Source: Aneurinibacillus thermoaerophilus (GTDB lineage: Bacteria; Bacillota; Bacilli; Aneurinibacillales; Aneurinibacillaceae). Taken from it: a DNA stretch of 49,729 nt. The translations under genes and the position numbers were made by a program. Position 1 is the first letter of the stretch. The number at the start of each line of letters is the position of its first letter. The stretch spans positions 1 through 49,729 of the forward strand of contig NZ_FNDE01000026.1 of NCBI RefSeq assembly GCF_900099925.1, given 5' to 3'. The notes under the pieces are model-generated. The model saw only the letters and a list, made by a program, of their open reading frames with translations, was not told where the DNA came from and did not search any database. Shown here one piece after another: positions 8,191 through 31,145 of the stretch.

Positions 8191-9483
8191 CTAATCATTT
8201 TCCTCCGCTTTTTTTCCGGACGACGGCTTCTTATTTTCTTCCGATTCGTTAATTGGAGGACGCGCAAAGTTTTGCTTGTTCTTTTGCTTTTCGCGTTCTT
8301 CTTTATATTTTTCGTTTCGTTCTTTTTCTTCCTCTTTAATTGCGCGTCCTCCCTGCTGATATTGCTGTTGTAGTTGACCGTATTCAGAATAGTAGCGTTC
8401 ATCTTCTTTCGTCCGATTTGCTTCTCTTTTCGTTTGCTGTTCGGCTTTCCGCTTCGTTTCGGCCGCAATGATTTTTGGCACGCCTTTTGTCTTATCCCTT
8501 TTTTCTTCTTCAGTCAATATATGCTGGCGTTTTCCAGCAGACGATTCTTCTTCCCGCTGAACGACTGTCGTCTCATGTTTTTTCTTTTCTTCTTTGGTGG
8601 CGTTAGCTTTATGGTTCGTCGCCATCCGTTGTTTTACATTTGAAGCAACGGGTTTGGTTACTTGAGCTGGTCGCCGCGCTTCCGGTTTTGCCGCCATTTT
8701 TTCCTTCGAATACTGAATGATGTTTGGAATATTTTCAAAGCCTCCGATAGCGGAAGATACTTCGCTAATGCTCAACGTCTGAATTTCCTTTTCACTAATC
8801 TTTTTATTTACTCGCTTCATGGAATCATAGAGCGTGTATTTTCCCGGGGAAATACCCAGCTTTTGCGCCTGCTTGCGCATTTCTTTCGTACTTTCCATTA
8901 AAGTGATGGTAAGCTCTCCCGCGCTGTTGCTGACAAGATGCGGTATTTCTTTTTTCATAAGCTGCAATAATTCCCGCGAAGCCTCCGGATTTTTCAACCC
9001 TACAGGTACAATAAGCACATCGTGGTTATTTTTTAAAAACCCGTGTACGCGCGCGTCCGTGAGAATATCTTTCGTTACTTCCAATAAAGGACGCTTTTCC
9101 CATTTAATATTCTTCAATATGCTTTCCGCATCCTGATTAAGTGCTGTGACGCTCGTTACTACATAGTTTTTATCAATTTCAAGTTCAAAGCTTGGATTAA
9201 TATCAATGGAAACGGCCGCGTAAGCAGAAGCAAAAACCATATTCCATAACGGCAGTGCAGTAATGAATAAAAGCAAACAAGCCGCCGCTACATATGTCCA
9301 GCCCTTCCAGCTGCGCTTGGCCCGTTGCGATGCTTTTTCTGCTTTGACCGTGCGTGTAAATTCCACCTCATCCCCTTCTGTAAGAGGTTTGTCCACAGGA
9401 GGGATTTTACAAAACTCCCCGTCGGACGTCATGACAATAAGATACTGATTCTGTATCTCCAGTACGATGCCCTTCCTTTTCAC
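8191..9483 (-). CDS. rsgI: Anti-sigma-I factor RsgI
   Basis: A membrane-bound anti-sigma factor that holds SigI inactive. From the GTG at 9483 it is 430 residues. Residues 1-50 form the RsgI_N domain (KGIVLEIQNQYLIVMTSDGEF). Residues about 62-88 form the membrane helix. The external domain begins AAVSIDINPSFELEID, with an Asn96-Pro97 pair where the RsgI family is reported to self-cleave. The last third is low complexity, rich in Lys, Glu and Gln. The GTG is preceded by AAAGGAG at 10 bases and matches RsgI N-termini. ATG codons further upstream lie in sigI and are unlikely starts. The gene overlaps the 3' end of sigI by 77 bases. Confidence 0.88.
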   Translation of the reverse strand: MKRKGIVLEIQNQYLIVMTSDGEFCKIPPVDKPLTEGDEVEFTRTVKAEKASQRAKRSWKGWTYVAAACLLLFITALPLWNMVFASAYAAVSIDINPSFELEIDKNYVVTSVTALNQDAESILKNIKWEKRPLLEVTKDILTDARVHGFLKNNHDVLIVPVGLKNPEASRELLQLMKKEIPHLVSNSAGELTITLMESTKEMRKQAQKLGISPGKYTLYDSMKRVNKKISEKEIQTLSISEVSSAIGGFENIPNIIQYSKEKMAAKPEARRPAQVTKPVASNVKQRMATNHKANATKEEKKKHETTVVQREEESSAGKRQHILTEEEKRDKTKGVPKIIAAETKRKAEQQTKREANRTKEDERYYSEYGQLQQQYQQGGRAIKEEEKERNEKYKEEREKQKNKQNFARPPINESEENKKPSSGKKAEEND

Positions 9484-10282
9484 GCGCAAGCTTCTCCTTT
9501 CCCTCTGTATCATCCACCTGAATGTAGGAGCGCAAATATTGATAGTTCTCAATAAAAATGAGTGTAATCGCCACAATATAATTTCGATTTCTTTCTACCG
9601 TCTTGCGTGAGAAAGAAATAAACTGCAGAAGATATTTGACAGGAATTTTCTTTTTCTCCAAAAATGCTTCGCGCAGCTTCTTGTTATCCGCGATCATCCG
9701 GGCGATGTGAATCATATTTTTTCGGGCATCTGCATGCCTTGGAGTGTATTCAGGAAGCTCTTCCAGCTCAATGTCGAATTCACGCAAACGTTCGCGATAA
9801 TGCAAAATTTCTTCTCGCCGCATCTCCGCGTCCTGCTTTGCTTGATGCTGTTCAATCGCCGCCTGCACATCCCAGACATTATACTCGGGTGATTCGGGGT
9901 CTGCTGTCTCATCTAACGAAACAAATAAAGCCCGTTGCTTGTTTTTACGAATAAAATCTATGACACGCCTGCGTATCACAAGATCAGCAAACGAGAGAAA
10001 GCTGCTTCCTTTATCGCTTGAATACTGTGATATCGCTTCGTTAAACGCTTCAAGTCCAACGCTGAATTCTTCATCATGGGTTTGGTGAATATATCGCTTG
10101 CACACTTTTGATACCGTCGTTCCGATAAAAGGACGGTACTGCTGAAGCAATTCATTGCGCAACGCATCTTCGCCCTGGTGTATTCTTTCAATCATTTGAT
10201 GAAGGTGTTCAGTCTCTTGCACCTGCAACAACTTTTCTCTTCGGCGCCACTTTCCTAGGAAAAGTGTAAGTAACAAAGACAT
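9407..10282 (-). CDS. sigI: RNA polymerase sigma factor SigI
   Basis: A sigma-70-like factor of the SigI type, linked in Bacillus to heat and cell-envelope stress. The core is recognisable through LRNELLQQYRPFIGTTVSKVCKRYI, EEFSVGLEAFNEAISQY, FADLVIRRRVIDFIRK and the region 4-like FISFSRKTVERNRNYIVA near the C-terminus. The product is 291 residues, about 40 longer than the Bacillus subtilis protein. The extra C-terminal tail after YLRSYIQ lies in the overlap with rsgI. The ATG at 10282 is only about two bases from GAGGTG. The TTG two codons later (10276) has better spacing and may be the real start. Confidence 0.88.
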   Translation of the reverse strand: MSLLLTLFLGKWRRREKLLQVQETEHLHQMIERIHQGEDALRNELLQQYRPFIGTTVSKVCKRYIHQTHDEEFSVGLEAFNEAISQYSSDKGSSFLSFADLVIRRRVIDFIRKNKQRALFVSLDETADPESPEYNVWDVQAAIEQHQAKQDAEMRREEILHYRERLREFDIELEELPEYTPRHADARKNMIHIARMIADNKKLREAFLEKKKIPVKYLLQFISFSRKTVERNRNYIVAITLIFIENYQYLRSYIQVDDTEGKEKLAREKEGHRTGDTESVSYCHDVRRGVL

Positions 10283-10455: not shown

Positions 10456-10881
10456 CTAAGGCAGCGTTTTGTTGCTTTGTGCTTCCCAACGGATCAGGCG
10501 TTTGCTTAGTTTATTTAAACGACGCTTCAATTCATTGCTCCATTCTTCATCATCCAATTGTTTGGCAACAGACATCAAATCAAGCGCATTATCAATCTGA
10601 CTGCGAAGAATATAAGAGATGTTGCCGTCGTCGATCGAAACGCAATTCTCAAAAATTCTCTCTACATGCTCTCCGGTCACATATTCGCGAAAGTCGACTT
10701 CGGGAGCTAAATCGGCCTGGGCGTATTCAGACAATATATCATACTCTTCCTCGATCTCAGGGTGAACATCAATACGATTGCATACAGGGCAGTACAAAAT
10801 CGGGACGTTATGAATTTGCGTCTTAACATGACGCAAACTACCAAGTGCTCCAATCATACTGGCTCCACAACAAAAGCTCAT
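10456..10881 (-). CDS. Unknown 141-residue cysteine-motif protein
   Basis: Start chosen at MSFCCGASM (10881) because GGAGGA lies 6-7 bases upstream. A longer reading to 11025 has no ribosome-binding site. The N-terminus has a CC pair (4-5) and a CPVC motif (31-34) in an N-terminal layout like a small zinc ribbon (ILYCPVCNRIDVHPEIEEEYD). The rest is acidic and probably helical (DLMSVAKQLDDEEWSNELKRRLNKLSKRL). Zinc binding is inferred; function unknown. A 67-base repeat element (11064-11130) lies upstream. Confidence 0.7.
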   Translation of the reverse strand: MSFCCGASMIGALGSLRHVKTQIHNVPILYCPVCNRIDVHPEIEEEYDILSEYAQADLAPEVDFREYVTGEHVERIFENCVSIDDGNISYILRSQIDNALDLMSVAKQLDDEEWSNELKRRLNKLSKRLIRWEAQSNKTLP

Positions 10882-11063
10882 CCGGACTCCTCCTTTATCA
10901 TCTATAGCAGCTACGCAACAACGTACAACTTCTATTGTAATGGTGTATATTTTGTTTTCCCATGCGTAAAATAATGGAACTTCCCTGAAAAAACTGCCTG
11001 CATTGCAATGGCTGAATTTTCTCACCTTTTTTCTATTATTCTACCACAAAACCCTCTAACCTT

Positions 11064-11130
11064 ACATGAGAAAAACTTGTAGGCGTTATCGATCCTTCTC
11101 TCTCCCCATGCCACATGCTCTACATGAGAC
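11064..11130 (-). repeat. Leader-like hairpin repeat, copy 1
   Basis: This element shares most of its sequence with 11582-11645, including TAACGCC(T/C)ACAAGTTTTT on the minus strand, a GAGAA-type central part and a pairing 5' arm (CATGTAG / CTACAAG, one mismatch). On the minus strand the 3' arm runs into TTTTTCT, as in a terminator or attenuator. It sits about 180 bases upstream of the gene starting at 10881. Confidence 0.55.
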
Positions 11131-11218
11131 GGGCAACGTTTGGCACACGCCTTGCCAGTGTTTCCTCGTTTACAAATGAAAAGATTCCTCATAAAAAGTA
11201 GATATGTCTGAAAGACTA

Positions 11219-11248
11219 TAAAAAAAGGGGAGCGGAAATTTCCGCTCC
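11219..11248 (-). terminator. Strong terminator after the 80-residue gene
   Basis: GGAGCGGAAA and TTTCCGCTCC pair perfectly over 10 bases, and on the minus strand C then TTTTTTT follows. It ends the gene that stops at 11267. Confidence 0.85.
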
Positions 11249-11266
11249 GAGCTTAAACGCTTTCGC

Positions 11267-11509
11267 TTAACACCATCCCATGTCACAATTATCAACATAG
11301 CTGGAAGGATGGACAGTGTCCGCCGAGTCAATGCGAAAAATTCTTTGCTGCTCTACCATGTATCCGGCATTCATCGTACAGGAGGCCGCGTCAAACGGAA
11401 TGTGTCCGATTTCTCGGCCATTCAGTGTCAGGACAATGCAATCCTCCGTCACTTCGCCACGCACTTGCTTCGTAACATCAATACGATTTACATCTGGCTG
11501 CTGTGACAT
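11267..11509 (-). CDS. Unknown 80-residue cysteine-ended protein
   Basis: Start at MSQQPDVNRIDV (11509), 7 bases after GGGAGG. An in-frame ATG at 11533 lacks a good site. The sequence looks like a small beta domain (DCIVLTLNGREIGHIPFD) with a C-terminal VDNCDMGWC. Cysteines at the extreme C-terminus are unusual. No family is recognised. It is flanked by the two copies of a hairpin repeat and closed by a strong terminator, so it is a separate transcription unit. Confidence 0.65.
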   Translation of the reverse strand: MSQQPDVNRIDVTKQVRGEVTEDCIVLTLNGREIGHIPFDAASCTMNAGYMVEQQRIFRIDSADTVHPSSYVDNCDMGWC

Positions 11510-11581
11510 CACAATCCCTCCCGATTTACACAAGAATACTTATAGTATGCCTAAGGAAGATATTTTTTACTCGTTTCTCAA

Positions 11582-11645
11582 ACATAAGAAAAACTTGTGG
11601 GCGTTAACCGCTCGTTCTCCGTTCCATACGCTCCACAAGTTTTCG
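11582..11645 (-). repeat. Leader-like hairpin repeat, copy 2
   Basis: An 11-base perfect stem (AAAACTTGTGG at 11590-11600 with its complement at 11633-11643) encloses a 32-base loop. On the minus strand the second arm continues into TTTTTCTT. It is closely related to 11064-11130 and ends about 73 bases upstream of the gene starting at 11509. It may be a leader attenuator, a small RNA, or one of a family of dispersed repeats. Confidence 0.55.
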
Positions 11646-11861
11646 CAATGAATGGTTTGCTTTTTCAAAGCCCTCTAATTTTATACAAAAACATCCTTCT
11701 TCTTGTGCTCCTTTTGTACAGTGACAATGTCGTTTAAAAATTGAACGATTCAAGTTATATATCCCTCTAGTTTCCATTTCATGTATAATAAACAGGAAAT
11801 TTCGATATTCGTTTATTTAAAATTCGGACAGTGTAGTCAAACGAACTGAAGTAAAAGTAGC

Positions 11862-12470
11862 ATGAATGAATTAACCTTAGTTGATACAGGCTATACCAAT
11901 TTTTTGCCTTTAATTGAAAAGGAGATTTTAAAAATTGGATATGACATGAAGAATTTAAAGAATATCATTATTACACACTGTGATGATGATCACATCGGTT
12001 CTTTATACGATTTCAAGGAAAAATATCCTTCAGTTACTATTATAGCTAGTGAAGTGGAAGCGAAATTCATTAGTGGTGAAGCGAAATCTGAGAGATTAGT
12101 TCAAGCTGAGGAAATGCTAAATAATATGCCTGAGGAAGAAAAAGAGTTTGGAAATTGGTTTATACAGCAATTAAAAATTTTAAGACATGTTTCAGTTGAT
12201 GAAACAGTCCATGATGGCCAATGGATTTTACATAATAAATGCAAAATTGTTGCAACACCAGGGCATACATCAGGCCATATTTCATTATATTTTCCTGAAT
12301 TAAGCAGTGTCATTACAGGAGATGCAGCAGTTAGAGAGGGGAATGAATTAGTGATAGCGAATCCACATTTTTGTTTAGATATTGAGAAAGCAAATCAGTC
12401 TTTGAATCGTTTAAAAAACCTTAAGGCTAAAGATTATTATTGCTATCATGGTGGAAAATTAACATTATAA
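11862..12470 (+). pseudogene. MBL-fold hydrolase lacking its N-terminus
   Basis: The 202-residue frame matches the metallo-beta-lactamase-fold hydrolases of Bacillales: LVDTGYTNFLPLIEKE, the metal-binding THCDDDHIGS, the second ligand region ATPGHTSGHISLYFP, the Asp ligand in ITGDAAV and the C-terminal CYHGGKLTL. Full-length relatives have roughly 25-30 more residues before LVDTGY, forming the first beta strands. Here a TGA lies six codons upstream of the first ATG, which has no ribosome-binding site. The gene is clearly more AT-rich than its neighbours. Most likely a transferred gene that has lost its 5' end. The remaining frame is intact, so expression from another start cannot be excluded. 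Confidence 0.65.
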
Positions 12471-27564: not shown

Positions 27565-27819
27565 AAGATACGAACGTGTTGATGGGGATTAGTAGGGCAT
27601 ACGCCTGCGTTCAGAGAGCAAATCATACCGCTGCAAGATTTGCCGTACGGCCTGCCTGAACCCACCCCGGAGCGCCAGGGAATGAACCTGGCCAGGGTCC
27701 TCTCCCTGTTACCAAAGAGGTAAGCGGGCATGCGGCCAATGCCGCATCGCCAATAAAGGTGGTACCGCGGAAGCAATTTGCCTTTCGTCCTTTTGCAAAG
27801 GAACGAAAGGCATTTTTTT
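27565..27819 (+). ncRNA. Proline-specific T-box leader of proBAC
   Basis: The conserved T-box core AATAAAGGTGGTACCGCGG lies at 27752-27770. Upstream is a stem I with an AGTA bulge, the distal CAGAGAGC and GCTGCAAGA elements, and the specifier loop CTGAACCCACC. The specifier is CCC (27661-27663), a proline codon, which fits the proBAC genes that follow. Uncharged tRNA-Pro would pair with the specifier and the core and prevent formation of the terminator at 27780-27819, raising proline synthesis when proline is scarce. Confidence 0.92.
27780..27819 (+). terminator. T-box-controlled terminator
   Basis: GCCTTTCGTCC pairs with GGAACGAAAGGC (one bulged A), followed by ATTTTTTTG. It is the regulated terminator of the proline T-box, 75 bases before proB. 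Confidence 0.9.
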
Positions 27820-30308: not shown

Positions 30309-31145
30309 ATGTCTAGCCTTAAGGATAAAACCATTTGCTTTCTCGGCGCTGGATCTATGGCGGAAGCAATGATTTCAGGATTGGTAAACAAAAATCTCCT
30401 TCCTTCCAAGCAGATCTGTGCACTAAACCGCAGCAATAGCACCCGCATCCGGGAATTAGCGACGCGCTATGGAATTTCTATATTAAGAAAAGAAGAAGCG
30501 ATTAGAACAGCGGATATTATCATCCTCGCTGTCAAACCGAAAGATATTGACGCAGCGATCGCAGAGATTCAATCATTCACCCGGCCGAAACAACTTTTTA
30601 TTTCTGTACTGGCCGGCATCTCCACGGATTATATTTCGCACCTGCTTGGCCACCAAGCCCCGGTTATCCGAACAATGCCAAATACTTCAGCGGCGGTCGG
30701 TTTGTCCGCTACAGCGATCGCTTCCGGCGCGTTCGCTACGGAAAAGGATATGGAACTTGCCATGCAAATTTTTCAAGCGATCGGTATTGTAGAAACAGTA
30801 AAAGAAAAAGACCTGCACGCCGTAACCGGTCTTTCCGGAAGCGGTCCAGCTTATGTATACTATTTGGTAGAAGCAATGGAAGCGGCCGGACGTGAAATCG
30901 GCCTTGCACCGGAAGTAGCCCGCCGCCTGATTCTGCAGACGATCATCGGCGCAGCGCATATGCTCCGCGACCGCCAAGAAGAACCGGCACTGTTACGCAA
31001 ACAAGTGACCAGTCCGAATGGTACGACCGCAGCAGGGATTGCCGTGCTCGAAGAACGCGGCTTCCAGGAAGCGATGCTTGCCTGCATCAAACGCGCGGCC
31101 GAACGATCAGCTGAAATGGGAAAACAATCAGTGTCTGCCTCCTAA
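30309..31145 (+). CDS. proC: Pyrroline-5-carboxylate reductase
   Basis: Last step of proline synthesis, reducing pyrroline-5-carboxylate with NAD(P)H. The Rossmann motif is FLGAGSMAEAMISGL, followed by VKPKDIDA, IRTMPNTSAAVG and the signature GLSGSGPAYVYYLVEAME...VTSPNGTTAAGI. 278 residues from MSSLKDKTI, with GGGGAG before the ATG. It follows proA by 13 bases, completing a proBAC operon under the T-box. An upstream in-frame ATG inside proA is rejected. Confidence 0.97.
   Translation: MSSLKDKTICFLGAGSMAEAMISGLVNKNLLPSKQICALNRSNSTRIRELATRYGISILRKEEAIRTADIIILAVKPKDIDAAIAEIQSFTRPKQLFISVLAGISTDYISHLLGHQAPVIRTMPNTSAAVGLSATAIASGAFATEKDMELAMQIFQAIGIVETVKEKDLHAVTGLSGSGPAYVYYLVEAMEAAGREIGLAPEVARRLILQTIIGAAHMLRDRQEEPALLRKQVTSPNGTTAAGIAVLEERGFQEAMLACIKRAAERSAEMGKQSVSAS

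Follow-up and report, generated by a model that had tools for sequence, protein, structure and literature searches.

Two related elements in Aneurinibacillus thermoaerophilus are very probably decayed copies of a mobile DNA element with a hairpin core and a preference for terminators

Two related elements lie close together in the 49,729-nucleotide stretch of Aneurinibacillus thermoaerophilus DNA that we analysed (hereafter, the window), and both are very probably copies, now decayed, of a non-autonomous mobile DNA element. Element A occupies positions 11062..11184 of the minus strand and corresponds to a copy of a dispersed repeat that lacks the repeat's core. Element B, at 11582..11645 of the same strand, is a copy of which little is left beyond the outer stem. 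A sequence-only reading of this DNA had preferred to see in them a shared cis-regulatory RNA or attenuator, and offered a dispersed repeat family as its alternative. It is the alternative that the evidence favours, since tens of intergenic copies are found, in 10 of the 11 genomes of the family Aneurinibacillaceae that were searched. By themselves A and B are ordinary, being two fossils of a repeat; what is interesting is the family behind them.

On the minus strand both elements terminate in ACAAGTTTTTCT, at the places and on the strand that the sequence-only reading had given. That reading also held that the two share sequence and structure. The shared sequence is borne out, as A used as a query against its own genome recovers B (E 3.9e-4), with 84% identity across 37 nt. 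However, only B forms a convincing stem. Its region (11572-11655, minus strand) folds at -28.5 kcal/mol with a z-score of -4.0, which none of 200 shuffles equalled, and the hairpin is also present on the plus strand, at a z-score of -2.5; B could act as a terminator-like hairpin. The region of A (11055-11140, minus strand), by comparison, is no more stable than shuffled sequence (z -0.17, with 88 of 200 shuffles equally good).

We compared both elements by blastn with 100 fetched loci of the repeat family. A matched 34 of them (best E 3.7e-18), the longest alignments running from 11184 to 11062 (locus L171) and from 11178 to 11067 (locus L165), so the extent previously assigned to A, 11064-11130, was too short and represents its 3' part. 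B matched seven loci (best E 2.3e-6), with homology from 11618 to about 11582. No matches to the same 100 loci were obtained at the same cut-off with 40 base-shuffled queries. A is similar to short copies without a core, e.g., L165, L166 and L171, and judged by these alignments it is itself the core-less short form, a form that is present among other copies too. A covariance model of the core (R1, see below) detects no core in A or B. Its one match in the window, at 30799 with an E-value of 1.3, was taken as chance, and we dropped the idea of an intact core in either element on this account.

As the sequence-only reading had stated, each element lies upstream of a separate gene of little-known function. 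The gene downstream of A (10456..10881, minus strand) matches no Pfam and no NCBIfam family, and the one downstream of B (11267..11509, minus strand) is a DUF2553 gene (Pfam PF10830, E 2.8e-13); each is present in 10 of the 11 family genomes. A scan for terminator-like structures places the intrinsic terminator of the DUF2553 gene at 11229..11248 of the minus strand (8 pairs followed by CCTTTTTTTA), and by eye a terminator is in the same position in G001, G002, G003 and G005. A sits behind this terminator, although divergence prevents the assignment of the roughly 35 nt that separate its T-run from 11184. Between A and the gene starting at 10881 is a promoter-like block, TGGTAGAATAA (11030..11049, minus strand), and a second such block, GCATACTAT (11535..11552, minus strand), is located between B and the DUF2553 gene. 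Both were recognised by their conservation, which was judged by eye: they are kept in the window's own genome (G000) and in G001, G002, G003 and G005, among the eight genomes whose gaps were printed. A consensus promoter scan misses both blocks and reports a single promoter-like site, which lies on the opposite strand; shuffled sequence yields more. In these five genomes the order is the DUF2553 gene, its terminator, the block TGGTAGAATAA and the next gene. A is placed between terminator and block, and B is upstream of the block GCATACTAT.

The surroundings of these genes have some further features. Between gcvH and the DUF2553 gene is a gene of the metallo-beta-lactamase fold (11862-12470, plus strand; Pfam Lactamase_B), and the gap that holds it is about 1.2 kb here and short in several of the printed relatives. 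Downstream of the two genes is a sigI-rsgI pair (8191-10282, minus strand; models SigI and anti-sigma RsgI). The sole Rfam match in the window is a T-box leader at 27570-27795 of the plus strand (RF00230, 95.6 bits against a gathering score of 93).

The gaps corresponding to those of A and B were printed for 8 of the 10 genomes that have the DUF2553 gene. Among the seven relatives, A's gap is without a visible element in G001, G003, G004, G006 and G010. In G005, a near-complete copy lies directly behind the same terminator as A, which allows an occupied site, CTTCTTTTTTT-element-GCATAATGA, to be set against the empty site of G003, CTTCTTTTTTTGCATAATGA. G002, which belongs to the same genus as the window, has a different, core-bearing element at A's position, in a gap of 1101 bp. 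By eye, a decayed copy can also be seen in G005 at B's place. Because the site of A is common to G000 and G005, these may be old shared insertions as opposed to separate events.

These comparisons bear directly on the proposal that A and B are a shared leader RNA or attenuator regulating both downstream genes, which we consider very improbable. The proposal would explain why each element is upstream of a gene on the same strand, why in B a T-run follows a stable hairpin, and why G005 has copies at both places. However, a leader is expected between promoter and start codon, and here the promoter-like blocks, as inferred from conservation and with the consensus scan negative, stand between each element and its gene. 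A leader is also expected to be conserved before orthologous genes, and A is missing from five of the printed gaps despite the conserved gene downstream. In addition, A folds no better than shuffled sequence, the two genes have no family in common, and the tens of copies of the repeat adjoin unrelated genes. We reject the leader reading because of the position of the elements relative to the promoter-like blocks and because of their absence from most of the printed orthologous gaps. A and B are probably not leader RNAs, and no regulatory role at this locus is evident from the sequence for either. The sequence-only reading had itself named what would count against a regulatory RNA, namely copies at random places with no link to genes and no compensatory base changes. 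This is found in part: the copies show no link to gene function, but they are tied to terminators, and those with a core do carry compensatory changes.

Copies of the repeat are numerous, dispersed and intergenic, and their distribution among related genomes is patchy. With B as the query, matches were found in 6 of 61 genomes, the window's own included. Queries consisting of full copies found matches in 6 of 7 genomes of the genus and in 10 of the 11 family genomes that were searched, where a single genome can have as many as 70. Full copies are about 275 bp long in Aneurinibacillaceae and 330-347 bp long in a distant genome, G054. They are palindromes of a long, rod-like form, and their conserved hairpin core (GTCTC[C/A]C ... 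CCCAGATGTTT) is carried by covarying stems. In G008, copies at different places share as much as 98% identity. Searches of plasmids (two queries) and phages (one query) gave no match. In IMG/VR, 19 stretches fit the core pattern, of which by eye 17 are chance-like and two, L288 and L300, contain true cores; both are contigs classed as viral that carry core-bearing elements of the family. A second repeated module, GGGCAACTAAGGC ... CTTGGC...GCCAAGTTTTCTTTA, which has a terminator-like end, was seen by eye directly before the copies L130, L141, L198, L311, L313 and L314.

The core of full copies is an internal hairpin with the conserved loop CAAYTGTCTCC ... CCCRGATGTTTTG. We found the exact loop pattern in 11 genomes of Bacilli out of 299, the window's own not being among them, and a control in which the pattern was read backward gave none. 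The same loop is present in elements that differ elsewhere in sequence but are alike in predicted architecture, which comprises long arms on the outside and an inner arm, a bulge of 5 nt rich in A, a stem of 6 bp, the loop and, on the 3' side, a small side hairpin. We assessed covariation in 32 non-redundant elements and obtained a score of 0.589, compared with 0.209 after shuffling; none of 500 shuffles reached it. All 12 tested pairs in this set show two-sided changes, a result also reached by 30 of the 500 shuffles. In a set of 39 sequences from more lineages, the score was 0.667 versus 0.204 for shuffles (0 of 500 reaching it) and at most 0.255 for slid controls, and the 12 two-sided pairs of this set were also reached by 194 of 500 shuffles. 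Model R1 was applied to 398 Bacilli genomes, with at most 13 candidates scored in each, and 17 proved to carry the core. Besides the 11 genomes of the family, every one of which is positive, these are G036, G054, G107, G096 and G095, and G168 with one weak match. With a second covariance model, R2, applied to a sample of the phylum, 1 of 398 genomes was positive, namely the window's own.

The sequence-only reading did not recognise the elements as a known class, and our searches agree. Rfam has no match at E<=5 in 10880-11860, and in 14 loci no match at gathering score lies over an element; matches to c-di-GMP-I, tRNA and CRISPR in these loci are outside the elements only, and sub-threshold matches are weak, with a best E-value of 0.0099. 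Since the window's T-box lies elsewhere, a known Rfam class was excluded, as was a group II intron remnant, for which the 14 loci gave no intron match at E<=1. Two structural ideas were dropped on inspection by eye. One was a promoter inside the element's first hairpin, both of whose arms seem to vary in step; the other was a pseudoknot in which the core loop would pair with the 3' side hairpin, the partner sequence of which differs in the multi-copy family.

Where the copies lie is not arbitrary. We analysed 80 copies from six genomes of Aneurinibacillaceae, which were taken from the better matches and are not a random sample. At the left junction, 65 of the 80 have a terminator-like hairpin followed by a T-run, whereas the same is true of 4 of 80 right ends and of 55 of 359 positions behind other long ORFs. 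When the left junction is read on the other strand, 24 of the 80 reach the terminator score. A stricter count gives 54 of 80, compared with 9 of 795 random windows. An upstream ORF within 300 bp has the same direction as the element in 56 of the 80 cases and the opposite direction in 19, and is lacking in 5. Outside G054 no flanking duplication was found: none was detected in 31 representatives (29 of them from Aneurinibacillaceae), and the single one flagged among 11 further elements, at L367, was read as a tandem neighbour. Among the near-identical G008 copies L128-L147, the two to three bases that separate the T-run from the first conserved base were seen by eye to vary, as if they had been added or left over at insertion.

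A different arrangement is found in G054. This genome has 59 matches, whereas a search of 24 others in its genus gave a single match in one and nothing in the remaining 23. In 32 of the 48 G054 loci that were fetched, direct repeats with an aligned length of 14-38 bp flank the element, and the same score is reached by 1 of 2256 mismatched pairs of left and right flanks; the remaining 16 loci are without a duplication. Of the 32 repeats, 30 contain a stem of at least 7 pairs, compared with 185 of 640 shuffled repeats. Thirteen of the 32 loci have TTTT at the right-hand copy and 23 have AAAA at the left-hand one, both being counts without a control. Many of the G054 targets appear to resemble terminators on one strand or the other, not every one of them clearly on the strand of the element. 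At 30 single-copy loci the elements are 330-347 bp long, start near CAGACTGAAGACAAA and end near TTTGTCTACACGCTG, and these ends are imperfect terminal inverted repeats. Tandem arrays with a spacing of about 355-365 bp were also observed, with three copies at L397 (G054:C1 656475-657249) and two at L387 (891304-891733). As far as the flanks can tell, the G054 loci have the topology of a target-site duplication in which the unit is a hairpin.

We propose that the element is recognised by its folded core and moved in trans by an enzyme that would be aimed at hairpins, often those of terminators. The enzyme would read the folded DNA of the element, as a single-stranded hairpin or a cruciform, and would attack the base of the target hairpin. 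If staggered nicks were made on either side of the hairpin, repair would leave the whole hairpin duplicated, as in G054; insertion behind the T-run would leave no duplication, as in Aneurinibacillaceae. The dispersal of the family, its target preference and the conservation of its core are read from the genomes themselves. The enzyme, the folded-DNA intermediate and the nicking at the hairpin base go further, and we think them about equally likely to be right or wrong. Stems that are maintained as single-stranded RNA are expected to favour G.U pairs. In 45 elements, imperfect arm pairs comprise 87 G.T and 78 A.C (p 0.53), and the corresponding counts near the core are 6 versus 5 and 12 versus 16. 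This lack of a G.T excess favours a palindrome that is read as DNA, even though an RNA step could still have taken part. No mobiliser was found among the candidates considered, as the numbers of Y1_Tnp and RVT_1 genes do not track copy number in 11 genomes. Y1_Tnp is present in 10 of them, with one match each in the copy-rich G005 and G010 and two in the copy-poor G004, and RVT_1 genes are present in nine. We also saw no common neighbour gene at 17 loci whose proteins were read by eye.

It is necessary to consider more conventional explanations of the family. The elements might be an ordinary MITE, i.e., a deletion derivative of an insertion sequence that is present or has been lost, with the apparent targeting of terminators reflecting the space behind genes, where insertions are tolerated. 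Short length, inverted arms, high copy number and intergenic position all agree with this explanation, which we regard as possible yet unlikely. Terminal inverted repeats are present, imperfectly at the ends of the G054 copies and as long inverted arms in those of Aneurinibacillaceae, and G054 adds the flanking duplications. However, the tolerated space behind genes does not readily explain why position is tied to a hairpin with a T-run so much more often than behind other long ORFs. The duplications also vary in length, from 14 to 38 bp, and nearly all contain a stem. Moreover, the loop of the internal hairpin is conserved while the arms differ freely between lineages.

A still less probable explanation is a mobile RNA that is transcribed, folds and returns to DNA by means of a reverse transcriptase. 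The conserved loop with its compensatory stems would suit this explanation, as would the absence of RVT_1 genes from G004 and G006, both of which are poor in copies. There is also a parallel in group IIC introns, which according to passages of PMC3240598 insert just behind intrinsic terminators and recognise the stem-loop; the copies of Aneurinibacillaceae resemble them in lying behind terminators with no duplication. On the other hand, G.U is not in excess over A.C in arms or core stems, the 14 scanned loci have no group II intron match, and G004 and G006 still have 9 and 8 core matches, respectively, although old insertions could explain these. The elements further differ from group IIC introns in giving no match to intron RNA domains in these 14 loci, in their size of about 275-347 bp and in the flanking duplications of G054.

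Having weighed these explanations, we continue to prefer a DNA element moved in trans, and it is instructive to compare it with known systems. IS200/IS605-type elements and their palindrome-bearing derivatives have ends that fold as single-stranded DNA, and they insert beside a fixed short site with no duplication. Such duplication-free insertion resembles the junctions seen in Aneurinibacillaceae. However, Y1 transposase genes do not clearly track the copies here, G054 has duplications, and the core is internal. The repeats BOX, RUP and SPRITE of Streptococcus pneumoniae are, in the portions of PMC3049150 consulted, likewise small, dispersed, strongly folded and devoid of genes; BOX is modular, and SPRITE is terminator-like and enriched near the 3' ends of genes. 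By this description our family differs in having an internal core on covarying stems across several families, in copies that lie behind host terminators and in the hairpin-sized duplications of G054. The repeats bcr1-bcr18 of the Bacillus cereus group are also intergenic, multi-copy and from Bacilli, with bcr1-bcr3 described as MITE-like and bcr10 and bcr18 as having conserved secondary structure (PMC3446304, PMC2267715); the parts of these descriptions that were consulted mention neither the targeting of terminators nor the duplication of a hairpin. Prokaryotic MITEs in general, as introduced in part of PMC10969869, are also a near kind. Neither the family nor a hairpin-sized duplication was found in the portions of open-licence PMC papers that our literature search covered. 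As far as tested, the repeat family is undescribed, the comparison with BOX, RUP, SPRITE and bcr being one of descriptions.

We tentatively suggest, with slightly less than even confidence, that the family represents a new class of mobile element, in which a conserved DNA hairpin is the defining part and DNA shape is the target, in the form of stem-loops that are often terminators. In at least one lineage, cuts flanking the extruded hairpin would turn all of it into the target-site duplication. Most mobile elements read the sequence of their target, and few are known to read its shape. The family also carries a warning, as hairpins beside terminators in these genomes are easily taken for leader RNAs. 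If our proposal is true, a class that targets shape would imply a structure-specific recombinase acting in trans. An element that lands at terminators and duplicates hairpins would then illustrate how selfish DNA reaches sites where it does no harm, and would account for many of the intergenic repeats in a bacterial family.
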